Shown here piece after piece: positions 5,398 through 54,818 of a DNA stretch of 64,000 nucleotides. How positions within the stretch are numbered: position 1 is the first letter of the stretch; each line of letters starts with the position of its first letter. A program made the position numbers and the translations under genes. Source of the stretch: Chloroflexi bacterium bin125. GTDB taxonomy: Bacteria > Chloroflexota > Dehalococcoidia > Bin125. The stretch spans positions 1 through 64,000 of the forward strand of contig MPNM01000004.1 of the NCBI GenBank assembly GCA_002239025.1. The letters are read 5' to 3'. The notes beneath the pieces were generated by a model. The model did not search any database. It was not told where the DNA came from and saw only the letters and a program-made list of their open reading frames with translations.

Positions 5398-5588
5398 CTC
5401 GCCGCGGGCACGGCTTGGTCTGGTTGACAGCCGAGTTATCGGTTGGCAAAGTGGCGAAAGAGAATTCGTAAGCCGAGCGCAAAATCGGTCAACGAGCGTG
5501 GAACGTGTGCAGCGATAATCTGAGTCCGCGATAAGCTAACGTCAACTAACTCCCACCACGGCGGGCGTGGCGCAAGGAGGAGCCGGGA

Positions 5589-6431
5589 ATGCGAAGCATC
5601 TTGTTTGACGGAACGGCAAGGCGGTGGAGCCTGGGCGTGGCGTTGGTCGCTGGCCTGGCGACGCTGTTGATCACGCTGGCGCCGTCGCTCGACGCACAGA
5701 GCCAACCGCTGCCGCCCCAGTATTTCTGGGGAACCGATGCCACAAACTACGCAGGAGCAGAGGTCAAGGTCTTCGACCAAAACGGGAACGAGCTTCCGGC
5801 CTGTCCGGTGAGCGCCCAATGCGAACAAGAAGGCATCGTCTACAGCGATGGCGGATGGCACGTGGCAGTGGATCCACGGGAAGCCACGAAGGTGAAACTC
5901 CGCATCGTTTCGGCCGCCGAGAGCCGCGAGACCAACTTGCTGGACGTCGTTGGCGGAGATGGCCAGGGCGTTTCGATCAGACAGTTCGTCAATGTGGTTC
6001 AGGTTGAAACGGCCCCAACTGAGACGTTACCGATTCGGATCACTGTGCGGCTGCACCCGACCCGACCGTTGAGGACGCTGGAATTCAACATCAGCGTCAA
6101 CAACATCCGAGTCAGCCCGGCGCCGCCGAAGCGGTATCTTACGCCAGGCCTGCGCACTGACAGATGGTTGCAGAGTTCAGTGATTGACGCCGGCAACGGC
6201 TACCAGGTCCGAATCATCGCCTGTAAGCAGACCGATGACGACGTCCTCTTCGGCGTCAGGGTTGCAGGCCACGACGACATCATCCCACGCCTGCATCGGT
6301 TGCGAAGCAGCGTGACCGACAATGAATGGAAGAACAGCAACGTGTTCGAGATCCAGCTCCCGGGCAGCAGTCAGAATGTCGTCCGACTGGGCGCAGATGC
6401 CGACTGCTCCGGAAGCCCGATCAAGCAGTAG
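5589..6431 (+). CDS. Secreted protein with two EFGLR-type modules (unknown function)
   Basis: 280 aa. The start has a strong Shine-Dalgarno sequence (AAGGAGGAG). Residues 12-37 are a signal peptide or signal anchor ending in a possible SLDA cleavage region. Residues 40-145 look like a beta-rich domain with DQNGNEL and two cysteines (Cys72, Cys78). Residues about 148-199 and 206-256 are two diverged copies of a module with the pattern: basic beta strand, polar turn, (E/L)F-hydrophobic strand, a P-x-(R/K)-hydrophobic element and a W followed by a Ser. Clear counterparts occur as pairs in the proteins at 44617 and 51869. This is the most diverged pair (ITVRL / LEFNI / PPKRYL / RWLQSS and VRIIAC / VLFGVRV / IPRLHRL / EWKNS). 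Function unknown; presumably extracytoplasmic. Confidence 0.8.
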   Translation: MRSILFDGTARRWSLGVALVAGLATLLITLAPSLDAQSQPLPPQYFWGTDATNYAGAEVKVFDQNGNELPACPVSAQCEQEGIVYSDGGWHVAVDPREATKVKLRIVSAAESRETNLLDVVGGDGQGVSIRQFVNVVQVETAPTETLPIRITVRLHPTRPLRTLEFNISVNNIRVSPAPPKRYLTPGLRTDRWLQSSVIDAGNGYQVRIIACKQTDDDVLFGVRVAGHDDIIPRLHRLRSSVTDNEWKNSNVFEIQLPGSSQNVVRLGADADCSGSPIKQ

Positions 6432-17339: not shown

Positions 17340-17527
17340 GTGAACGCGGATCTGCTTACCCTGCTCGTGCAGTTCTATGTTGGCCTAGACAGCGGCGCGA
17401 TTCCGAGAAAGCCGAATGGATGCTACTCACCAGAGCCGAGCCCGAAGTGCAGACGCGCTGGTTACGTCTGCTTGAGGAGATGCCGATGGGCGAAGTACGG
17501 GTGCCGGTCAGAGTCATCAATCCATAA
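17340..17527 (+). pseudogene. Possible frameshifted small gene upstream of the broken protease
   Basis: A GTG at 17340, preceded by GAAGGAA, opens a frame reading NADLLTLLVQFYVGLDSG. Around 17400 this frame loses protein character, while the neighbouring frame continues with SEKAEWMLLTRAEPEVQ and RWLRLLEE directly into the start of the protease relic at 17486. A single-base shift would join the two parts. I do not recognise the product. Small genes precede aspartic proteases elsewhere in this window (49085/49417), so this may be the remains of such a partner. Low confidence. Confidence 0.25.
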
Positions 17528-27647: not shown

Positions 27648-28217
27648 ATGCCCGAGGCGGTCACGCTCATCCTGGCCTACCTGCTGGGATCGATTCCGGT
27701 CTCCTGGCTGGTCTTTCGCTGGCGCACCGGACAGGACCTGCGCCTCGTCGGCGATGGCAACGTCGGTGCAGCGAATGCCGCTCGCGAGGGCGCCGGACAC
27801 TTCATGGGCGCCGTGATCATCGTGCTCGACATCGGCAAAGGCTTGCTGGCCGTCTCAATCGCCAGGTTCTGGGAACTCGAACTCGGCTGGTGGATGGCAG
27901 CCGGCGGCATCGTGATGGTCGGTCATATGTGGCCGCTCTTTCTCCGATTCAACGGCGGTCGCGCGGCCGCGACCGGCCTCGGCGCTGCCGGAGCATTCCT
28001 GCCGTGGCAGTTTGCAATCACCTTCGTCATTGGTGGGTTGACCTACCTGGTGACCAGAATCGCCGAACTGGGCATCCTGCTCGTGGCCGCGCCGCTGCCC
28101 TTCCTGGCCATCGCGTTCGGTGAGCCAATCGAATCAATCATCTTCTGCTTCGCCGCACCGATCGCCGCCGGACTCAAGACTGGATGGGACAAGTGGCAAG
28201 AAGCTGGGACGTCATAG
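27648..28217 (+). CDS. plsY: Glycerol-3-phosphate acyltransferase PlsY
   Basis: 189 aa integral membrane protein with about five membrane helices. It transfers the acyl group from acyl-phosphate to glycerol-3-phosphate, the first step of phospholipid synthesis, and works with PlsX, which is not in the window. Family features are AYLLGSIPVSWLVFRW, the GNVGAANAAREG loop (usually GSGNxGATN), and the FNGGRAAATGLGA motif corresponding to FxGGKGVAT. The slightly divergent loops are a reason for caution, but the layout is that of PlsY. It overlaps the next gene by 34 bp. Confidence 0.87.
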   Translation: MPEAVTLILAYLLGSIPVSWLVFRWRTGQDLRLVGDGNVGAANAAREGAGHFMGAVIIVLDIGKGLLAVSIARFWELELGWWMAAGGIVMVGHMWPLFLRFNGGRAAATGLGAAGAFLPWQFAITFVIGGLTYLVTRIAELGILLVAAPLPFLAIAFGEPIESIIFCFAAPIAAGLKTGWDKWQEAGTS

Positions 28218-29386
28218 TCGTCGGTGCGGGTCCCGGCGGTTCAACCGCGGCCTACGACCTCGCACAGGCCGGGGCCGAGGTCTTGCTCCTCGACCGCGCT
28301 CAGTTTCCCCGCGACAAACCGTGTGGCGGAGGCGTCCTGCTATCAGCGGTCAAGCTGCTGCCGTATTCGCTCGATCCTGTCACCGAACAGACCATCACCA
28401 GCTTTCGTGTCCGCTACAAGCGCAGATGGGAGTTTGAACATCATTACGACGCCCCGCTCGCAATCATGACGCAACGAGCCCGCCTCGACGCCTACATGGT
28501 CGATCAGGCTGCCGGCGTCGGAGCCGAGTTCCGCGACGCTTCCGCCGTGCGAAGCATCGACAACACCACTCTGACGCTGGCCAACGGCGACTCCCACAGC
28601 GCAAGCGTGATCATCGCCGCCGACGGAGCCAACGGCATCGTCCGGCGGGCGCTTGGTCTACCGCGCTTACGGGGCGCTGTAGCGCTCGAGGGCAACGCAG
28701 CGAGGGCAGCGTCGAGCGGTGTTGCAGATCCCGGCGATCGCTGGACCGACGCCGTCGGATTGGAGCTTGGATCCGTGCCTGGCGGATACGGCTGGGTCTT
28801 TCCCAAGGGGGACCATTGCAACGTCGGAGTGGGAGGCTATCCGGCGGCCGCATCGACGCTCAAGCGAGAGCTCGGCCTCTACGCAGCCTGTGAGTCGTTC
28901 GACGGATCAACCCTGACCAACCTCCGCGCTCATCACCTGCCATTGCGAGACCCCGACAGCACCCTGCTCCACGGTCCGGTGGCATTCATCGGGGACGCCG
29001 CCGGCCTCGTTGATCCACTCTCGGGTGAGGGCATCGGCAACGCGATCCGCAGCGCCCAGTTGGCAGTGCAATCCGCTCTGGAGTGCCTACATGGGGACGC
29101 TTCAGATCTGTCGGGTTACGAACACGCCGTACTCGCAGAGATCGAACCGGAGCTCAGAGTCGCCCGACAGCTTCAAGCCCTTTTCCAGCAGACACCCTGG
29201 CCATACGTCCAACTCCTCCGCCGCTCAGAAAGGTTCTGGGGAGCCTTCTGCCGAATTGTGAGAGGCGAGTCGACCTACACCAGCTTCCAAAATCGCCTGG
29301 GACCAGCGAAGGCCGTCGTGGACGCAGCGGCGTCGTTAGCTGCGCGTCGTGAACGCCGTGGCGCCTCGTGGCAGACCGAGGACTGA
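28184..29386 (+). CDS. Geranylgeranyl reductase-family FAD oxidoreductase
   Basis: 400 aa. FAD motifs: VIVVGAGPGGSTAAYDLAQAG (dinucleotide fold; only the GAGPGG core is diagnostic), LLLDRAQFPRDKPCGGGV, and the late FIGDAAGLVDPLSGEGIGNA. This is the geranylgeranyl/digeranylgeranyl reductase pattern; such enzymes saturate isoprenoid chains of lipids, chlorophyll or menaquinone. With menaquinone genes 8 kb away, a role in menaquinone side-chain reduction is conceivable but unproven. The start within plsY (34-bp overlap) implies coupled translation. Confidence 0.86.
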   Translation: MGQVARSWDVIVVGAGPGGSTAAYDLAQAGAEVLLLDRAQFPRDKPCGGGVLLSAVKLLPYSLDPVTEQTITSFRVRYKRRWEFEHHYDAPLAIMTQRARLDAYMVDQAAGVGAEFRDASAVRSIDNTTLTLANGDSHSASVIIAADGANGIVRRALGLPRLRGAVALEGNAARAASSGVADPGDRWTDAVGLELGSVPGGYGWVFPKGDHCNVGVGGYPAAASTLKRELGLYAACESFDGSTLTNLRAHHLPLRDPDSTLLHGPVAFIGDAAGLVDPLSGEGIGNAIRSAQLAVQSALECLHGDASDLSGYEHAVLAEIEPELRVARQLQALFQQTPWPYVQLLRRSERFWGAFCRIVRGESTYTSFQNRLGPAKAVVDAAASLAARRERRGASWQTED

Positions 29387-29387
29387 C

Positions 29388-30635
29388 TCAGCCCTCGATC
29401 TCGCGAGCCGTCGCCAGCGCTTCTTCCCACGTGGTCCGATCTCTGATCATCCCCTGGTATCGACGCAGCATGCGCGGCCAACCGACTGCGACCACGCCGC
29501 TCAGGTATCCGCGCAGACCGTAGATGGCCGCGAACCGATTCGACTCCAGCGTTCCATGAACGAGCTGGAAGTTGTCTCTCGGCGCAGTGATGCCCGACGC
29601 CATGATGCTCAGTCCGTGTTGGTCGGACCAGAAGTAGGGCACCGGCGAGAAGGGCTCCAGCGACTCACCACGCGACTCCAGCAACAGATTCCTGGCAGCC
29701 GCCATGCCCTGTTCGACGGCGTTGGTCCAGTGCTCAATCCGCATCGTCCGTTGCGGTTCCGAGTAGGCGAATGGGCCAAACAGGCCGTTGGGCCATCGAG
29801 CGACATCACCTGCCGCAAAGATGCCCGGCGCAGCGCGGCAGTACTGGTCGCAGATCACGCCGTCGCCAATCGTGAGTCCCGAGTCAGCCAACCACTCAAC
29901 ATTCGGTCGCACACCAATGCCAACGACGACAGTGTCGGCTTCGATTCTTGTTCCGTCCTCCAGTTCAACGGCTTCGACCTGTCCATCGCCGACCAGGTCC
30001 GACACCATCGCGTTCATCCGCAGGCCGACTCCCGCGCCAGCGTGCAATTCGGCGGCCCAACCAGCCAGTTCCTCGCCAAGCGGTCCGATCATGGGCGCTG
30101 ACAGCGCTTCGATCATCGTCACGTCGAGACCTCGGGCTCGAGCCGAGGAGGCAACTTCGGACCCGATAAACCCCGCGCCGATCACGGCCACTCGAGTGCC
30201 CGCCTGTAGTTCGTCGCGAATGCGTAGTGCGTCAGCCTGCGTCCGCAGCATGTGAACCCCGGTTAGTTGCCGACCGAACGGCAGCCCCAATGCCCTGGCA
30301 CCGGTGGCGATGATCAGACCGTCGAATTCAACTGGCTCACCTCCCTCAAGCAGGACCTTCTGGTCCGCCACATCGAGCGCTTCCGCAGTGCGGCCATTGA
30401 GGAAATCGAGCTGCAGGTCATCGAACTCTGCCGCTGAACGCAGCGGCAGCCGGTCCACGTCCCATTCTCCGGTCAGCAATTGCTTGGACAACGGTGGCCG
30501 GTCGTACGGGTACTCGCGCTCGTCGCCGATCAGCGTGATCTTGCCCTGGAACCCCTCGGTGCGCAGCGACTCGGCTGCGTTCAATCCGGCAAGGGAAGCG
30601 CCAACGATGACAACCCGGTCCATAGGACGTTCCAT
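29388..30635 (-). CDS. FAD-dependent ferredoxin/rubredoxin-NAD(P) reductase-like protein
   Basis: 415 aa. Two Rossmann folds: RVVIVGASLAGLNAAESL for FAD near the N-terminus and VAVIGAGFIGSEVA for NAD(P)H near residue 150, with the conserved DRPPLSKQLL segment and FAAGDVARWPN. The C-terminal domain with YFWSDQHGLSI is that of putidaredoxin/ferredoxin reductases. It would deliver electrons to a ferredoxin for an oxygenase; no ferredoxin or oxygenase gene adjoins it. It converges on the gene at 28184 with one base between. Confidence 0.88.
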   Translation of the reverse strand: MERPMDRVVIVGASLAGLNAAESLRTEGFQGKITLIGDEREYPYDRPPLSKQLLTGEWDVDRLPLRSAAEFDDLQLDFLNGRTAEALDVADQKVLLEGGEPVEFDGLIIATGARALGLPFGRQLTGVHMLRTQADALRIRDELQAGTRVAVIGAGFIGSEVASSARARGLDVTMIEALSAPMIGPLGEELAGWAAELHAGAGVGLRMNAMVSDLVGDGQVEAVELEDGTRIEADTVVVGIGVRPNVEWLADSGLTIGDGVICDQYCRAAPGIFAAGDVARWPNGLFGPFAYSEPQRTMRIEHWTNAVEQGMAAARNLLLESRGESLEPFSPVPYFWSDQHGLSIMASGITAPRDNFQLVHGTLESNRFAAIYGLRGYLSGVVAVGWPRMLRRYQGMIRDRTTWEEALATAREIEG

Positions 30636-30740
30636 GCGCAGAGGCTACTGCTGACTGCTCCGAGTCTCGTTTGTGAAATCCTTCGCTATGATGCTTCCAA
30701 ACACAATCCATAGACCCCGACCACCAGACTGGAGACAACC

Positions 30741-31598
30741 ATGGGCAAGATGGACGGCAAAGTTGCCATCGTGACAGGCGCAAGCCGCGGCATCGGCGCC
30801 GCGATCGCAGAGTGCTTCGCAGCCGAAGGCGCGAAGGTCATCGCGACTGCTCGCACGGTGCAAGAGGGCACACACCCGCTGCCCGGTTCGCTTGAGATGA
30901 CGATCAAGAACATCCGCGACGCCGGTGGCGAGGCCACCGCGGTCGCCGGCAACGTGTCCGAGTACGAAGAGTGCGCCAGCATTGTTCAGGCCTGTATCGA
31001 CACCTACGGTCCGCCTGACGTGTTGGTCAACAACGCGGCGCTGACCTACTTCATCCCGGTCAAGGACTTTCCGGTCCGCCGTTGGCTACGCTCGACCGCT
31101 GTCAACTTCCACGGACCCTTCTACATGAGCCAGCTCTGCCTCAATGAGGGCGGCATGATCGAGCGCGGCTCCGGTGCGATCGTCAACGTCTCCTCGGCTG
31201 CGGCCATCGGCCCAGGCCGTGGACCGTACGAAGGCGACGGCGGCGGCGGCACGCTCTACGGCGCCGAGAAAGCCGCGCTCGAGCGCTTCACCCAGGGTCT
31301 CGCCTCTGAGGTGCATCAGCACGGCGTCTCGGTCACCTGCTACAGCCCGTCTCAGATCGTCCCAACTCCGGGTGTGGTTCACCACCGCCTGATGGAGGGC
31401 CGTGACCCCAACGATGCTGAAAGCGTCGAGATCATGGCACAGGCAGCGTTGCTGCTCGCGACTGAGCCGCTGGACAAGGTTTCCGGCCGCGTCACCTATT
31501 CCCAGGAAATCCTCAAGGAGTTCGGCTGGGACATGGGCGGCAAAGAGCCGGCTGGCACAGGTGTCACCTCGCCGGGTTCGGGCTACTCTCAGATCTAA
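30741..31598 (+). CDS. Short-chain dehydrogenase/reductase (SDR) with an insert before the active-site Tyr
   Basis: 285 aa. TGASRGIG (12-19), basic/neutral ATART after beta-2 (NADP-type), NNAA in place of NNAG (97-100), Ser151/152, Tyr173 and Lys177 (YGAEK). Between the serine and tyrosine there are 21 residues including a glycine-rich loop (GPYEGDGGGG), longer than in the other SDRs here. The C-terminus lacks the usual VDGG strand and instead has SGRVTYSQEIL. It is probably specific for a different substrate than its paralogues, perhaps a CoA ester. Confidence 0.85.
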   Translation: MGKMDGKVAIVTGASRGIGAAIAECFAAEGAKVIATARTVQEGTHPLPGSLEMTIKNIRDAGGEATAVAGNVSEYEECASIVQACIDTYGPPDVLVNNAALTYFIPVKDFPVRRWLRSTAVNFHGPFYMSQLCLNEGGMIERGSGAIVNVSSAAAIGPGRGPYEGDGGGGTLYGAEKAALERFTQGLASEVHQHGVSVTCYSPSQIVPTPGVVHHRLMEGRDPNDAESVEIMAQAALLLATEPLDKVSGRVTYSQEILKEFGWDMGGKEPAGTGVTSPGSGYSQI

Positions 31599-42774: not shown

Positions 42775-43249
42775 GCCCGATCTCCCCTCTGCCCCTCTGC
42801 TTTCCCTTCTCCCCCCTTGCGGGGGAGATGCCGTAGGCAGAGGGGGGTCCTTCCCCCTCCGTCATTCCTGCGTAGGCAGGAATCACGAACGACCTCTGTC
42901 CATCAACAACAACAAGCTCCAGCCGTCCCCCAGCCGTCGCCACGCGATCCCCCTCCGTCACTCCCCTCCGTCATTCCTGCGCAGGCAGGAATCAAGAACC
43001 ACTCGACGCCGACCGCTAAACGAACAAACTCCTCCAACGAGTCCCCGCACCCACAAGACCCAAGGGGCATCTCCAGATCATCACCAAACCGAGAGTCCAA
43101 GACACTCGCTGCAGAGAACATTGATCGACCAGATTGACACTGACCCATGTCGTTCAATACCTTGCCCCAGAGACCGCCTACCGGACGGGCGCTAAGCGTG
43201 CGTGATCTTCCTCGCACCACCCTGACGACGGAACTGAACGGAGTTGGCG
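42775..43249. repeat. 475-bp spacer with palindromic repeats
   Basis: No gene is supported here. It contains a GGGGGAGATGCCGTAGGCAG-type unit (about 42806-42846) of the family at 12230 and 39129, then two copies of the hairpin ATTCCTGC-(GTAG/GCAG)-GCAGGAAT at 42864-42883 and 42973-42992, both preceded by CCTCCGTC. The latter resemble the REP-like CGTCATTCCTGCG repeats common in bacteria. The remainder (43000-43230) shows nothing except the upstream region of the next gene. Confidence 0.75.
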
Positions 43250-44542
43250 ATGAAATTTGAATTCTTCCATTTGATGCCATACCGGGACCTCCCGGCGGAC
43301 TTCGCCGAGACGAACAACTCGGTCTGGGTTGACGTCGACTCGAAGCTGTTCGACCCGGTCAAAGCTCACCAGATGTACAACGACGGTCTGGACGAACTCG
43401 AGGCCGCCGCTGCCGCCGGCTATGACGGCATCTGCGTCAACGAGCACCACCAGAACGCCTACGGTCTGATGCCGTCGCCGAACCTGATGGCTGCCAACCT
43501 CTGCCGTCGCACCAAGGATGTCGCCATCGTGGTGCTTGGCAACTCGATCGCGCTTTACAACCCGCCGACCCGTGTGGCCGAAGAGTTCGCCATGCTCGAC
43601 TGCATCTCCGGCGGTCGCCTGGTCGCCGGCTTCCCCGTTGGTACGCCAATGGACGACTGCTTCTGCTACGGCGCCAACCCGTCGCACCTGCGCGACAAGT
43701 ACTACGAGGCCGCCGACGTCATCACGCAGGCCTGGACGCGACCGGAAATGTTCTCCTACAACGGTCGCTACAACCAGCTCCGCTACATCAACATCTGGCC
43801 GCGACCGCTCCAGGACCCACACCCGCCGGTCTGGATCCCCGGCGGCGGCTCGGTTGAGACGTGGGAATGGTGCGCCGACCACAACTACGTCTACTGCTAC
43901 CTCTCCTACGGTGGCTACAAGGCCGGTCAGAAGAACGTAGACGGTTTCTGGCGAACGATGCAGCAGCGCGAGAAGCCGCTTAACCCGTACCACGCCGGTT
44001 TCCTCCAACTCGTCGCCGTCGGCGAGACCGAGCAGGAAGTCGCCGACAAGTTCGGACCGCACGCCGAGTACTTCTACAACAAAATGCTGCACATCGACCC
44101 GCGCTACGCCGACCCGCCCGGCTACCGCACCGTGCGCACCATCGAGCAGGGCTTCACTCGCAGTCAGGGCCTCAAGCCCGTCTTTGGTGAGTCCAAGAAG
44201 TTCGAAGGCGAAAAGACCGCCGAGAAGATGGTCGAGTCCAAGGCCAACTCCGAAATCACCTGGAATGACCTGATCCGCGAAGGCAACATCGTTGCCGGCA
44301 CGCCGAGTCAGGTCACTGAACAGCTCGAGGAAGTCATCAAGACGCTCCACGTCGGACACCTGATGATCCTCAACCAGTTCGGTTCGATTCCGAAGGAACT
44401 GGCTATCCCGAACATCGAGATGACCGCCCAGCAGGTGCTGCCCAACCTCAAGCACATCTGGGACGACGAAGGCTGGGAAGATCACTGGTGGCCGCAGGGC
44501 CTCCCCGGTGGCCAGGCCCAGCCGGCGGCGCTGAAAATCTAG
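43250..44542 (+). CDS. Luciferase-like (LLM class) flavin-dependent monooxygenase
   Basis: 430 aa from the ATG at 43250 (GGAG with 6-nt spacing). TIM-barrel flavin enzyme with MKFEFFHLMPYRDLP at strand 1, YDGICVNEHHQNAYG, VVLGNSIALYNPPTRVAEE and ISGGRLVAGFPVG, plus HPPVWIPGGGSVET. The EHH motif and length are typical of the luciferase-type monooxygenase branch (alkanesulfonate or nitrilotriacetate type). The FMNH2 could be supplied by the flavin reductase at 54081. Ends in a strong hairpin at 44569. Confidence 0.87.
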   Translation: MKFEFFHLMPYRDLPADFAETNNSVWVDVDSKLFDPVKAHQMYNDGLDELEAAAAAGYDGICVNEHHQNAYGLMPSPNLMAANLCRRTKDVAIVVLGNSIALYNPPTRVAEEFAMLDCISGGRLVAGFPVGTPMDDCFCYGANPSHLRDKYYEAADVITQAWTRPEMFSYNGRYNQLRYINIWPRPLQDPHPPVWIPGGGSVETWEWCADHNYVYCYLSYGGYKAGQKNVDGFWRTMQQREKPLNPYHAGFLQLVAVGETEQEVADKFGPHAEYFYNKMLHIDPRYADPPGYRTVRTIEQGFTRSQGLKPVFGESKKFEGEKTAEKMVESKANSEITWNDLIREGNIVAGTPSQVTEQLEEVIKTLHVGHLMILNQFGSIPKELAIPNIEMTAQQVLPNLKHIWDDEGWEDHWWPQGLPGGQAQPAALKI

Positions 44543-44568
44543 CGCCGCTCGCTTTCCGGCGAACCTCA

Positions 44569-44598
44569 CAAGGGGCGGAGCTCAGGCTCCGCCCCTTG
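44569..44598 (+). terminator. 13-bp perfect hairpin
   Basis: CAAGGGGCGGAGC (44569-44581), loop TCAG, GCTCCGCCCCTTG (44586-44598). It lies 27 bp after the LLM gene and 19 bp before the selenoprotein start. No T-run follows, so it may terminate weakly or act as a 3'-end stabiliser, and could sit in the 5' end of the next transcript. Confidence 0.6.
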
Positions 44599-44616
44599 TC
44601 ATATGATCAGACCAAG

Positions 44617-45717
44617 ATGATCAAACGAACCGTCATGACCGTACTCCTGAGCGCGGTGACACTGGTCGCCGCGGCATCGCTCGCGGGCCTGGCCTCGGCC
44701 AGCGGTCACGACGGTGATGACGGTGAAACCGTTCGCATCATGGCCAGGTTGCGGAGCAACGACTCGATAGAATTCGGTATCAGATCAAGCGCAGGGCCGC
44801 AGATCCCACGACTGCGTTTCCTCTCCGCAAGCGTGAATGATGGTGCGTGGAAGCGAAGCTCGCCAATCGAGCTGCCCAACGGCACAGTGGTCAAGATCAT
44901 CGTGCGGCGAGCAGAAGGCGAGCGAGCCGAGTTTGGACTGCGAATCGAGGATCCGCTGCAGCAGTTCCTACCACCGAAGCGCTACTTCCCGCGCAACGCC
45001 ACAGTCGACAAGTGGCTCTTCAGTACGCCAATGCTGATTCCGGCTCCGGAGCAGGCAGGCGAAGCAGACGAACCAGCGCCACCGCCCGAACCCGAGACCA
45101 CGCCGACACCAGAGGAGGAGCCATCGACTCCAGACGAATCTGATGGCGAAGAAAGTTCAGACGAGGGCGCCAGTGTCGAGCGAATCAGCGGCGGCCATCG
45201 AGATGGCTTGATCGTCGAGGGCAACATCGTTGGCGACCCGGACGCGCCGGTGCTGATTGTCGAGTACGGCGATCCATTTTGACCAAACTGCAAGAGGATT
45301 GCGACTCAGGTTGAGCCGCTCTTGATCGAAGAGTACCTCCGGACTGGCATCGCTCGGTTCCAGTTCGTGAACATCGCCTACCTCGGTGCAGCGTCTGAAC
45401 GGGTCGGTTACGCGATGGTCTGCGCCGTCGAGCAGAGCGGCGCTGCGTTCTGGCGAATCCACGATCGCTTCCTGGTGGACGGCAGTCGTGCCGCATCGCG
45501 CGGGCAGCTCATCGACTACGCAGGGGAAATCGGTCTCGACGCCGATAGCTTCACCGAGTGTTTCGAGGATCCCGCTACTCGCCAGGCTCATAACAAGATC
45601 GTCCGCGATGCCGCGGCGATCGGTGTTACCTATGGTCCTCGGGTTCATGTCAACGGAGTGAACGCCGGTACGACGTTTGATGGCATCAAGCGACGAGTCG
45701 AAGCAGCAACCCCCTAA
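44617..45717 (+). CDS. Putative secreted selenoprotein: two EFGLR modules fused to a DsbA-like UPNC domain
   Basis: 366 aa if the TGA at 45280-45282 is read as selenocysteine (Sec222). Signal peptide 1-29 (TVLLSAVTLVAAASLAGLASA). EFGLR module pair at about 38-85 and 91-141. Acidic Pro/Glu linker 143-188. From about 198 a DsbA/Thioredoxin_4-type domain: NIVGDPDAPVLIVEYGDPF, then U-P-N-C (Sec222, Cys225) KRI, the inserted helical part, and GPRVHVNGV with the cis-Pro. Both sides of the TGA are in one frame and each alone is half of a thioredoxin fold. Homologous DsbA domains have Cys at the TGA position. A hairpin downstream fits a bacterial SECIS. Alternative: a Cys (TGC/TGT) codon mutated or misread to TGA. 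Sec machinery genes are not in this window. Confidence 0.78.
45301..45319 (+). promoter_or_regulatory. Candidate bacterial SECIS hairpin
   Basis: Downstream of the TGA, GCG-A-CUCA (45301-45308), loop GGU (45309-45311), UGAG-C-CGC (45312-45319): seven base pairs with one A-C mismatch. The apical loop begins 26 nt after the TGA and its first two bases are G. Published constraints for bacterial SECIS elements are a 3-14 nt loop, a G among its first two bases and 16-37 nt spacing; all are met. An outer pairing CAAGAG (45291-45296) with CUCUUG (45319-45324) is also possible, sharing one base. Confidence 0.6.
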
Positions 45718-51026: not shown

Positions 51027-51921
51027 CGACATCAGCGTCGGGCAGTCGCTGTCGCATCACATCAATCGCTTCAGGGTTGCTGTCGATCAGCAGATACCGT
51101 CGGTCTAGCGCCAGCGCAGCTTCACCTACGGTCCCACTTCCCGCAAACGGATCCAGGACGAGTTCGCCCGTCTCGCTCGATGCGCGGATGATTCGCTCCG
51201 CAAGTGCCATTGGCTTTTGCGTGGGGTAGCCGGTTCGCTCGTGAGCATTCGTGCCGACAATCGTGTGCCACCAGACATCTGTGGGTAGCTTGCCGCGCTC
51301 TGCTTTTTCCTTACCAACGAGACCGGGCGCCATGTAGGGAATCCGGTCGATCGCATCTTGATCGAATATGTATCGCTCTTTGTCTTTGACGTACACGAGG
51401 ATGTTGTCATGCTTGGCCGGCCAGCGCCGCTTTGGTCGCCCGCCGAAGTCGTACGCCCAGATGATTTCATTAAGAAAGCAGTCGCGACCGAACATGCTGT
51501 CGAGCAGGACCTTCACATAGTGAACTTCGCGCGCATCGAGATGTAAGTACAGGGTGCCGTCGGGTCGTAGGACGCGCCAGAGTTCGGCGAGACGGGGCCG
51601 GAGAAACTCGATGTACTGTTCGAACGCATCCGCGTAGGCGTGCGACGACGCCTGCTCAGTCCGATAGCGCCGACCGCCGAATCCGGAACGGTCTCCGTCA
51701 TCATCCTGGACCGTGCGCAATCGTTGATACGTGCGCACGTTGCCGGTGTTGAAGGGCGGATCGGTGTAGACGAGTTGCACACTCTCGCCGGGCAGCGCCT
51801 GCAGGACCGGAAGGTTGTCACTTTCGACAATCCGGCCGGCGCGCTCAGCGGGCACAGTGGACAATCCGCTAACCGGTCCCCACGGCAACAGCGCCTGGCT
51901 GGTGCAGTGCCTCGGGGACAT
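51016..51921 (-). CDS. Solitary DNA adenine/cytosine-N methyltransferase (beta-class order)
   Basis: 301 aa from the ATG at 51921; later GTG/TTG starts near 51855-51864 are also possible and would avoid the 53-bp overlap with the upstream RCC1 gene. Motif IV TDPPF comes before motif I DPFAGSGTVGEAAL, so this is a beta-class N6-adenine or N4-cytosine enzyme. A variable region (about 55-190) is the likely target-recognition part. TGYPTQKPMALAERII is the motif X-like segment typical of Type III or orphan MTases. No restriction gene is adjacent, which favours an orphan regulatory or protective role. Confidence 0.8.
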   Translation of the reverse strand: MSPRHCTSQALLPWGPVSGLSTVPAERAGRIVESDNLPVLQALPGESVQLVYTDPPFNTGNVRTYQRLRTVQDDDGDRSGFGGRRYRTEQASSHAYADAFEQYIEFLRPRLAELWRVLRPDGTLYLHLDAREVHYVKVLLDSMFGRDCFLNEIIWAYDFGGRPKRRWPAKHDNILVYVKDKERYIFDQDAIDRIPYMAPGLVGKEKAERGKLPTDVWWHTIVGTNAHERTGYPTQKPMALAERIIRASSETGELVLDPFAGSGTVGEAALALDRRYLLIDSNPEAIDVMRQRLPDADVVRQ

Positions 51922-54088
51922 CGGTGTTGCCGTACTTGTTGATGCCCCAGCAGACGACTTCGCCGTCCTCGTTCAGCGCACAACTGTGCTCAGCGCCCAC
52001 TGTCAAGGCGGTAAAGACACCCTCCGGCGGATTCGCCTGACCCCAGACGTCGCGACCCCAGCAGGAGATCTCTCCCGACGCGGTCATCGCGCATGTGTGT
52101 TCTCCACCGCAAGACACGGAGACGTATGTGCCGTCTCCGATTTCGAGCTTGCCGTAGTCATCGTCGCCCCAGCAAGTGATTTCGCCCGCGTCGTTCAACG
52201 CGCAAGAATGTGCGTATCCCGCCGAGATGGCCACAAACGGACCCTCGGGCGCTTCCGACTGTCCAAAGGCATTCGCACCCCAACAAGAGACCTCGCCAGC
52301 TTCGTTGAGAGCGCAGGAGTGGGCATAACCGACGCTGAGGCTCTGCCATTGACCTGTTGGCGGTTCAAGCTGTCCGCTCCGACCGGTACCCCAACAATCA
52401 ATTGTTCCTTCGAGGGTCAGCGCGCAGGAGAATGAGGCTCCGCTGCCGACCATCTGATAATGACTCACGGTGGGCGGGCTCAGCGCCGATCCCTCTCCCG
52501 TGCCCCAACAGGTGTCCCGACTAAAGGCGCCGAACTCATCGCGATCACAGTCACTCTCGCCGATTCTGAATGGAGTCAATCTCGATGCGTCCTCGGGCAG
52601 CTCGCTGGCCGGCGCGTCGGTCTGTCCGTATCCGTCCCAACCCCAACAGACCAGCTCATTGTCCTGGTCAACCGCGCAAGTATGTGAGAGGCCGGGACCG
52701 ATCGAGACAAACGATCCGGCAGGTGCGTCCGACTGACCATCGCCATTCGATCCCCAGCAAGAGGCGCTGCCATCTTCGTCCAACGCACAGGTGTGCAACG
52801 CTCCCGCGACAAGAGTGCTAAACGTCCCACCGGGCGACGTCGTCTGTCCGCTGCCGTTCGATCCCCAACAGCGAACGGTGCCATCACTCGTAAATCCGCA
52901 GGTATGCGCGTTGCCGGCGCCCACTGCTGAGTAGCTCCCTGGCGGCGGGCTGCTCTGACCATGACCGTCCCAGCCCCAACAACCGAGCTCGCCATCGCCA
53001 TCGATTGCGCAGGTATGCCAGTCTCCTGCTACAAAGCTCGCATACGCTCCGGGCGGAATGTCCAACTGTCCGTCGCCGCCATAGCCCCAGCAGTGGATCG
53101 CGCCTTCGCTGTCCTGGGCGCAACTATGAGCGCCGCCCACATCAAGGGCGACGAATCGTCCATTGGGAGCATCGGTTTGACCAAACAGATTGTCGCCCCA
53201 ACATGCCACTTCACCAGACGTTGAAAGTGCGCAGCTGTGGCCCGGACCAGAACTCAGAGAAACATACGTCCCGTCCGGCGGCGAGGCCTGTCCGTAGAGG
53301 TCCACTCCCCAGCAATCAATCGAGCCGCTGGGGTCCAGGGCGCAACCATGGAGTGAGCCCATGCTGACCGCCACATAGCGTCCCACGGGCGCATCTAGCT
53401 GACCCAGGCTGTTGTCGCCCCAGCAGACGATGCCACCGCCAACATTCAGCGCGCAATTGTGACCTGCATCCGCAGTCAGTGTGAGGAACTTGCCCTCCGG
53501 CGGATCGTTCTGACCAAACTCATGCGATCCCCAGCATTCGATGGTCCCATCGGCAATCACTGCGCAACTATGGTTGCTACCGAGCCCAAGGAGTTGGGGC
53601 GACTTGACCGTGACAGTTCGCAATCTCGGGGGATGCGGAATCGTCACCGCAGTGCTTCCTAGCCAGCGTCCGTGATCGATGTCGGCCGGGATGAATCTCA
53701 GCCTGGGTAGCACATCATCGTCGACACCTTCGACGCGGAGGCCAAGTTCCGTGCGTCCATCATCCAGTTGCCGCGCGCGGACAAACAGCGTCCGGCCATC
53801 GGCGATGACAATCTCGGAACTCGTTCTCCAATTCGTACTCGTCGTGTTCCGAGATAGGTAACGGAGGTCAGGCAGGTAAGTTCGCTCGCCAATACGCAGG
53901 CCAAACTCGCTGCGCTCGCCTTCAACAACTCGAGCAACGATGCGCGCGCTCAGGTCGTCATCGCTAGTCTGAGCAACGCCAGGCTTGACCGATCCCGGCA
54001 ACGTCAAGAGCGCTACCAACAGCGAAATCCCTAGAAGCCCCAGCGTTAACACGCTGGCAGTCCCTCTGCTGATGCCTGTCCTAGGCAT
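51869..54088 (-). CDS. Secreted RCC1-repeat (propeller) protein with N-terminal EFGLR module pair
   Basis: 739 aa from the ATG at 54088, which overlaps the flavin reductase stop by 8 bp. A longer in-frame start exists but would lie inside that gene. N-terminal hydrophobic signal at about 14-40, ending VAQTSDDD. EFGLR modules at about 48-95 and 100-150 (SEFGLRI, TELGLRV, LPDLRYL, LPRLRFI). Then fourteen RCC1-type repeats of about 37 residues, each with a paired (H-x-C-A) ... (C-W-G) core, plus one degenerate unit around DTCWGTGEGS. Two seven-bladed propellers would need fourteen blades. Each repeat has one cysteine pair, which suggests disulfide-stabilised export. Function unknown. Confidence 0.85.
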   Translation of the reverse strand: MPRTGISRGTASVLTLGLLGISLLVALLTLPGSVKPGVAQTSDDDLSARIVARVVEGERSEFGLRIGERTYLPDLRYLSRNTTSTNWRTSSEIVIADGRTLFVRARQLDDGRTELGLRVEGVDDDVLPRLRFIPADIDHGRWLGSTAVTIPHPPRLRTVTVKSPQLLGLGSNHSCAVIADGTIECWGSHEFGQNDPPEGKFLTLTADAGHNCALNVGGGIVCWGDNSLGQLDAPVGRYVAVSMGSLHGCALDPSGSIDCWGVDLYGQASPPDGTYVSLSSGPGHSCALSTSGEVACWGDNLFGQTDAPNGRFVALDVGGAHSCAQDSEGAIHCWGYGGDGQLDIPPGAYASFVAGDWHTCAIDGDGELGCWGWDGHGQSSPPPGSYSAVGAGNAHTCGFTSDGTVRCWGSNGSGQTTSPGGTFSTLVAGALHTCALDEDGSASCWGSNGDGQSDAPAGSFVSIGPGLSHTCAVDQDNELVCWGWDGYGQTDAPASELPEDASRLTPFRIGESDCDRDEFGAFSRDTCWGTGEGSALSPPTVSHYQMVGSGASFSCALTLEGTIDCWGTGRSGQLEPPTGQWQSLSVGYAHSCALNEAGEVSCWGANAFGQSEAPEGPFVAISAGYAHSCALNDAGEITCWGDDDYGKLEIGDGTYVSVSCGGEHTCAMTASGEISCWGRDVWGQANPPEGVFTALTVGAEHSCALNEDGEVVCWGINKYGNTDVPEALHQPGAVAVGTG

Positions 54089-54818
54089 CTGGAAGCTCAC
54101 GAGGCAAGCTCGAGGAGTCAGGCTCCGACTCTCCACGTCGTTCTGCATCTTCCCGCCGCTCTGCTTCTTCTTCGCGCTTGATACGTCGTTCAGCCTCAGC
54201 CTCTTCCAGTTCACGACCGATACCTTCCTCGATCATTTGCTCAACTGGACGTTGCTCAACGGTGGAATCGAAGCCATCATCGAGAATGCTATATCTGCGG
54301 CCTCCGAGGTACATCAACGGCTTGTACTCATCATCGTCAAGCGACCACATGCCGGTATTGAAGTCGAACCCATCGGTGTCAGCCTGGGCAGATACTACTT
54401 TGCCGATGAACAATGTATGATCGCCCATGGTGTAGAAATCGTGCAACGTACATTCAATCCAGCCGAGGCAACCTTCCAATAGCGGCGAATCGATCTCCTT
54501 GCCCTTGAACGTGGGCACGCCAGAGGCCTCAATCTTGTCGCCAATCGTGTTCGACACCATACCCAGCCACTGCGTGTGATTGAGTAGCACCTTGGAGGGA
54601 ATGTTTATTGCGAACTCTTCGCCGAATTTGATCATGTCGTGAGTTCGGCGAGACGGATGCACCGCGACCGCGACCAGGGGCGGATTGACCGACACCGGCA
54701 TCACATAGGCGATCGGCGCTGCATTGCCGACTCCGCGCCAATTCGTGGTCACCAGCGCGACCGGCGAGCCGCCGAGTATGCGTCGGGCGTCTTCTTCGAG
54801 CATGCGTTTGCGTACCAT
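54081..54818 (-). CDS. Flavin reductase-family protein with charged C-terminal tail
   Basis: 245 aa. Residues about 10-170 are the FMN-binding split-barrel of flavin:NAD(P)H reductases: SPVALVTTNWRGVGNAAPIAYVMPV, VAVAVHPSRRTHDMI, FAINIPSKVL and the closing CLGWIECTLHDFYTMGDHTLFIGKV. Such proteins deliver reduced FMN to LLM monooxygenases, of which three are encoded nearby. The last 55 residues are almost all Glu, Arg and Ala (EEAEAERRIKREEEAERRED), a coiled-coil-like tail not normal for the family. It precedes and overlaps the RCC1 gene. Confidence 0.83.
   Translation of the reverse strand: MVRKRMLEEDARRILGGSPVALVTTNWRGVGNAAPIAYVMPVSVNPPLVAVAVHPSRRTHDMIKFGEEFAINIPSKVLLNHTQWLGMVSNTIGDKIEASGVPTFKGKEIDSPLLEGCLGWIECTLHDFYTMGDHTLFIGKVVSAQADTDGFDFNTGMWSLDDDEYKPLMYLGGRRYSILDDGFDSTVEQRPVEQMIEEGIGRELEEAEAERRIKREEEAERREDAERRGESEPDSSSLPRELPDA

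Follow-up and report, generated by a model that had tools for sequence, protein, structure and literature searches.

Does the in-frame TGA within the DsbA-like gene at 44617-45717 end a protein, mark a broken gene, or encode selenocysteine (Sec)? The gene lies in a 64,000-nucleotide stretch of DNA, which we refer to as the window. The initial annotation had proposed a probable DsbA-like selenoprotein with a UPNC active site, and this proposal is supported by conservation of the TGA, by the Sec machinery of the genome, and by a hairpin downstream of the codon. We conclude with very high confidence that the TGA at 45280-45282 codes for Sec and, almost as firmly, that its product is a secreted thiol-disulfide oxidoreductase, a selenoprotein with the DsbA/BdbD fold, in which UGA is read as Sec by way of a downstream stem-loop. 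The gene has the following parts:

44617..45717, + strand: whole selenoprotein gene, 366 aa with the TGA at 45280-45282 taken as Sec; architecture kept in orthologues
44617..44706, + strand: predicted Sec-type signal peptide, approximately residues 1-30, without a lipobox Cys; read from the sequence
44725..45051, + strand: N-terminal domain of two beta-rich repeats of ~54 aa, residues 37-145; conserved in orthologues
45052..45186, + strand: acidic, Pro-rich linker, residues 146-190; poorly conserved, pLDDT <50 at 147-185
45187..45714, + strand: DsbA-like thioredoxin domain (Pfam Thioredoxin_4, residues 203-359); from profile and fold
45280..45282, + strand: in-frame TGA, very probably the Sec codon for residue U222, the first active-site residue of UPNC; TGA in orthologues, Cys in non-Sec homologues and BdbD
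45289..45291, + strand: resolving Cys C225 of UPNC; invariant in 52/52 Sec sequences compared
45301..45319, + strand: putative bacterial SECIS stem-loop GCGACUCA-GGU-UGAGCCGC, with one A.C mismatch in the window copy; from comparative evidence
45637..45639, + strand: Pro341 (GPR), putative cis-Pro of the thioredoxin fold; invariant in orthologues, with cis geometry predicted

Translation of the frame 44617-45717 gave the TGA as the sole internal stop and a terminal TAA at 45715-45717. NIVGDPDAPVLIVEYGDPF precedes the TGA, and PNCKRIATQVEPLLIEEYL and, later, GPRVHVNG follow it; the initial description of the gene, its TGA, both flanks, and the GPRVHVNG segment was exact. The Pfam profile Thioredoxin_4 (PF13462) matched the read-through protein with 65.1 bits (cut-off 23.2) over residues 203-359, a match that crosses the active site, and the post-TGA part alone with 37.9 bits; the pre-TGA part alone had no Pfam match. 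The hydrophobic N-terminus, for which a signal-peptide cleavage site is predicted, is common to the orthologues of the selenoprotein.

Within the genus, a genome search recovered these orthologues from 12 further genomes, at 46-81% identity; every copy contains a single TGA, which scripted placement put at the UPxC position in 12/12. A codon alignment of nine sequences has one single TGA column. The nearest public records, MAG contigs JAPPFB010000012.1 and JAJEJC010000005.1 (labelled Chloroflexota bacterium and Dehalococcoidia bacterium), belong among these same-genus genomes and contain the gene with this TGA, at 79-81% protein identity. Independent genomes thus read TGA at the codon where, by the initial annotation, TGC or TGT in independent reads would have refuted the proposal. 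Since these genomes were assembled independently, their shared TGA excludes an artefact of frameshift or sequencing. The sharing of one alignment column by the 12 orthologues and by four paralogues from the same genome places the TGA far beyond chance. Past the TGA, dN/dS was 0.13-0.16 for the five nearest orthologues and 0.21-0.46 for three more distant ones (eight compared), and these low values indicate that the post-TGA part is translated and under selection; the thioredoxin-domain part preceding the TGA gave 0-0.30 (eight orthologues). The downstream conservation that had been held against decay of the gene is borne out as purifying selection.

An ordinary pseudogene, with the TGA as a strain-specific nonsense mutation of a CPNC gene or an assembly error, would be expected to look like this, with a TGA in mid-gene, but the same TGA in 12 orthologues and four paralogues together with purifying selection downstream of it refutes this reading, and the conserved hairpin and Sec machinery described below also count against it, which leaves it a negligible probability. 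Scarcely more probable is a real stop that separates two proteins, an N-terminal secreted repeat protein and a separately started C-terminal fragment. A TTG start is indeed present at 45322, but a fragment beginning there would miss both the active site and the first strand of the thioredoxin fold. Moreover, conservation runs without a break across the TGA, taking in the UPxC motif and the codons that precede the TTG, and the Pfam match spans both sides. Sequencing error, decay, and a real stop at the TGA are effectively excluded.

The residue that other family members carry at this position is Cys. In a class-wide alignment of 52 Sec and 22 Cys domains, the TGA column is Cys in 22/22 Cys forms, and the CPSC of Bacillus subtilis BdbD aligns in sequence with UPNC, its first Cys falling in the TGA column. 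Both comparisons confirm the earlier assignment of the TGA to the first Cys of CPxC. A quick tree of Sec and Cys forms needs at least three state changes, compared with a shuffled mean of 19.4, which makes Sec an inherited trait of the clade, with a few Sec forms elsewhere among Cys forms.

The initial annotation had mentioned neither the hairpin that follows the TGA, nor the conserved repeats of the N-terminal domain, nor a tandem set of four Sec paralogues located on a different contig. Rules for bacterial SECIS elements (bSECIS) cover loop size, a G in the loop, a spacing of 16-37 nt, and a minimum free energy of at most -7.5 kcal/mol (PMC13188914). The window hairpin fits them in loop size, loop G, and spacing, with a stem of eight positions (one of them mismatched in the window copy) and an apical GGU loop at 45309-45311 that begins 26 nt past the TGA. 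Forty-nine aligned Sec genes share the consensus hairpin GCGGCUCA-GGU-UGAGCCGC over the 19 nt that match 45301-45319; 91.9% of cells are paired, and four of the eight pairs have changed on both sides. None of 500 shuffles matched the covariation score, shifting the partner out of register by 1-3 bases lowered the pairing to 27-38%, and RNAalifold independently returned the identical hairpin core. Synonymous codons within the hairpin are near-frozen, with GTT in 37 of 38 Val codons (background 10%), GCT in 28 of 31 Ala codons (background 8%), and ACT in 10 of 16 Thr codons (background 8%), counts that come from related and hence non-independent sequences, including paralogues only 33-40% identical in protein. 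Outside the hairpin, codon use in the gene varies freely. A near-invariant GGU hairpin across paralogues that have diverged this far is a clear RNA-level constraint inside a coding region.

The energy of the window hairpin is borderline relative to the -7.5 kcal/mol threshold, at -7.2 kcal/mol alone and -8.0 kcal/mol with a short extension. Over 44-48 nt, the window copy folds best into a competing structure of lower energy (-10.5), so the evidence for the hairpin is comparative and not energetic. The fold energy of the window copy is no better than that of synonymous shuffles (z-score +0.57), and the mean z-score of the Sec sequences is a weak -0.77; it is codon bias by position and covariation, not fold-energy z-scores, that show the putative SECIS. 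Two more distant members of the class (L051 and L052) have Sec-type DsbA genes of other families, with a hairpin of different sequence (GCCCU..AGGGC, with a G-containing loop) at about the same place past the TGA.

The Sec machinery that the initial annotation had proposed to look for is present in the host genome (3.68 Mb, 66 contigs, 96.7% complete). It comprises a tRNA-Sec gene (selC) with anticodon TCA (66.4 bits), selB (328 bits, cut-off 242), selA (516 bits), and selD (351 bits), and is complete. The selD gene (L061 from 2639, + strand) has an in-frame TGA at 2768 in the motif CGG-U-GSKFGP, at the usual Sec/Cys site of SelD. With an in-frame TGA at this catalytic site (CGGUGSK), the host SelD is probably a selenoprotein itself. 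Across genomes, selA was above cut-off in 38 of 42 tested; three of the four genomes without it have Cys forms only, and one (72% complete) has a TGA form that is a candidate Sec form. Since most genomes with Cys forms have selA too, its co-occurrence with Sec forms says little by itself.

Hairpin and machinery also bear on whether the TGA could stand for a standard amino acid (Trp, Arg, or Cys), through reassignment or read-through, given that the read-through protein alone cannot tell Sec from another residue. We consider this about as improbable as a real stop: the TGA sits specifically at the catalytic Cys site, the genome holds a complete Sec pathway and a SECIS-like element, selD too has one TGA at its known Sec/Cys site, and the neighbours of the orthologues and the long ORFs of the window were found by ordinary table-11 reading.

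Reading the TGA as Sec places the protein in an already known kind, for DsbA-like UxxC selenoproteins have been reported since 2005. DsbA-like and DsbG-like UxxC selenoproteins were described from the Sargasso Sea in that year (PMC1088965) and again, GOS DsbA 1 among them, from GOS data in 2008 (PMC2398784), and a 2026 review lists both kinds, as DsbA-like form 1 and as DsbG-like protein, UxxC (PMC13188914). The replacement of Cys by Sec, which had been put forward as a known pattern, is thus documented (PMC1088965, PMC2398784, PMC13188914), and the known proteins likewise combine a DsbA fold, a first active-site Cys replaced by Sec, and a SECIS in the coding region. Compared by description, they differ from the window protein and its genome in the fusion to an N-terminal two-repeat domain and in the four tandem Sec paralogues. 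The best curated match is NF041057 (Rcas_1661 family thioredoxin-like (seleno)lipoprotein), which has the same motif and domain and aligns with residues 149-348. Its name refers to a gene of Roseiflexus castenholzii (Rcas), a Chloroflexota organism. At 103.7 bits against a curated cut-off of 190, the window protein falls outside this family, as does the tandem paralogue tested (108.6 bits, same cut-off); the window protein also differs in having an extra N-terminal domain and, on inspection, no Cys in the signal region and hence no lipobox. NF041057 is listed as a DsbG-like protein, UxxC (PMC13188914).

The AlphaFold model (mean pLDDT 76, mostly 80-92 in the DsbA-like domain and very low at linker residues 147-185) has an all-beta N-terminal domain and a C-terminal DsbA fold, that is, a thioredoxin fold with an inserted helical domain. 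Residue 222 immediately precedes the first active-site helix (223-241). Structural searches with the whole model gave matches to the C-terminal domain only, the closest being B. subtilis BdbD (VIA-align Z 20.6, rmsd 2.5 A over 167 residues), followed by Chlamydia DsbA, Corynebacterium DsbA/TsdA, and S. aureus DsbA. BdbD (3eu3) and S. aureus DsbA (3bci) are the closest solved folds, but they have Cys where the window protein has Sec, share only ~20-23% identity with it, and are without the N-terminal repeat domain.

On the strength of motif and fold, the most likely role would be extracytoplasmic thiol-disulfide exchange via the Sec222-Cys225 pair, and, given Sec coding, we regard a disulfide-exchange function as probable. 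SelB and Sec-tRNA-Sec(UCA) would be recruited by the stem-loop just downstream, within the coding region, and the ribosome would read the UGA at 45280-45282 as selenocysteine. The product would then be exported, its redox domain tethered by the flexible linker to the two beta-rich repeats of the N-terminal domain. Sec222 and Cys225 may cycle between a selenenylsulfide and the selenol/thiol form, and the pair may swap disulfides with extracytoplasmic proteins, acting on a presumed partner as an oxidase, isomerase, or reductase.

The alternative that survives best accepts the Sec protein and assigns it a peroxidase-like, selenium-carrying, or metal-binding role in place of disulfide exchange. 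UxxC motifs are able to support different redox reactions, neither the N-terminal domain nor the linker resembles those of DsbA proteins, and a search of the host genome for VKOR found none. On the other hand, fold, motif, and best structural neighbours all point to disulfide oxidoreductases, and the host genome encodes a CcdA-type transmembrane protein. We therefore rate such a role as unlikely, though it deserves more weight than any other alternative to a disulfide-exchanging selenoprotein.

The host genome has five PF13462 members, each with one TGA, and a search for Cys-type Thioredoxin_4 genes in it found none. Besides the window gene, they are four head-to-tail genes on contig 11 at 28166-31267 (between 2831 and 6295 of the segment 25000-35000), with the motifs UGGC, UPSC, UPNC, and UGGC and, on inspection, lipobox-like N-termini that mark them as putative lipoproteins. 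The four-gene array recurs in further genomes of the genus. We found no report of a tandem Sec-DsbA array in the literature covered, which lay mostly outside subscription journals; the fusion to an N-terminal two-repeat domain and the all-Sec five-gene Thioredoxin_4 set are new. With five Thioredoxin_4 proteins all of the Sec form and no Cys copy of this family as back-up, one may speculate, with more doubt than confidence, that the entire DsbA-type disulfide system outside the cytoplasm has switched to selenium in this genus. If this were true, the cell would need a supply of selenium to handle disulfides in its envelope. A genome with only Sec Thioredoxin_4 proteins offers a case for why Sec, and not Cys, is kept in extracytoplasmic disulfide chemistry. 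Gene finders blind to Sec would split the window gene, and likewise its four tandem paralogues, into two useless fragments; once these genes are recognised, the redox gene inventory of this little-known lineage of Chloroflexota is put right.

The N-terminal repeat domain follows the pattern VRIxAR...EFGLR...LPRxRxF...WxxSSPIEL and had no match in Pfam or PDB sequence searches; compared with the orthologues, its dN/dS is ~0.14-0.37. Relatives of the repeat occur in seven further places in the genome, two of them inside the window. Within the window, the repeat is found in a secreted protein with RCC1-like repeats (window 51869-54232, - strand) and in an apparently exported protein (window 5550-6431, + strand), and its presence in these proteins suggests an extracytoplasmic domain that is mobile in the lineage.

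Scans of the window found no Rfam match at gathering cut-offs, no tRNA (ARAGORN), and nothing in the promoter and terminator scan. A scan for stops between coding-like flanks yielded antisense frames for the most part, and no further TGA selenoprotein among its hits was convincing. One in-frame TAA at window position 17525 (+ strand) lies between coding-like flanks (VPVRVINP*EPTRHWEGAFLVDSG) and is perhaps one of the TAA-interrupted genes of the initial annotation. Between the luciferase-like gene and the selenoprotein gene is a perfect inverted repeat, ACAAGGGGCGGAGC..GCTCCGCCCCTTGT, at 44568-44599, with no T run after it; it is possibly a terminator or a repeat element. The gene order luciferase-like (LLM) monooxygenase, selenoprotein gene, VOC, VOC (glyoxalase-like), and SDR is kept wherever contigs reach. 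The adjoining luciferase-like monooxygenase (window 43244-44542) has 95-97% protein identity where the selenoprotein orthologues have only 46-81%.
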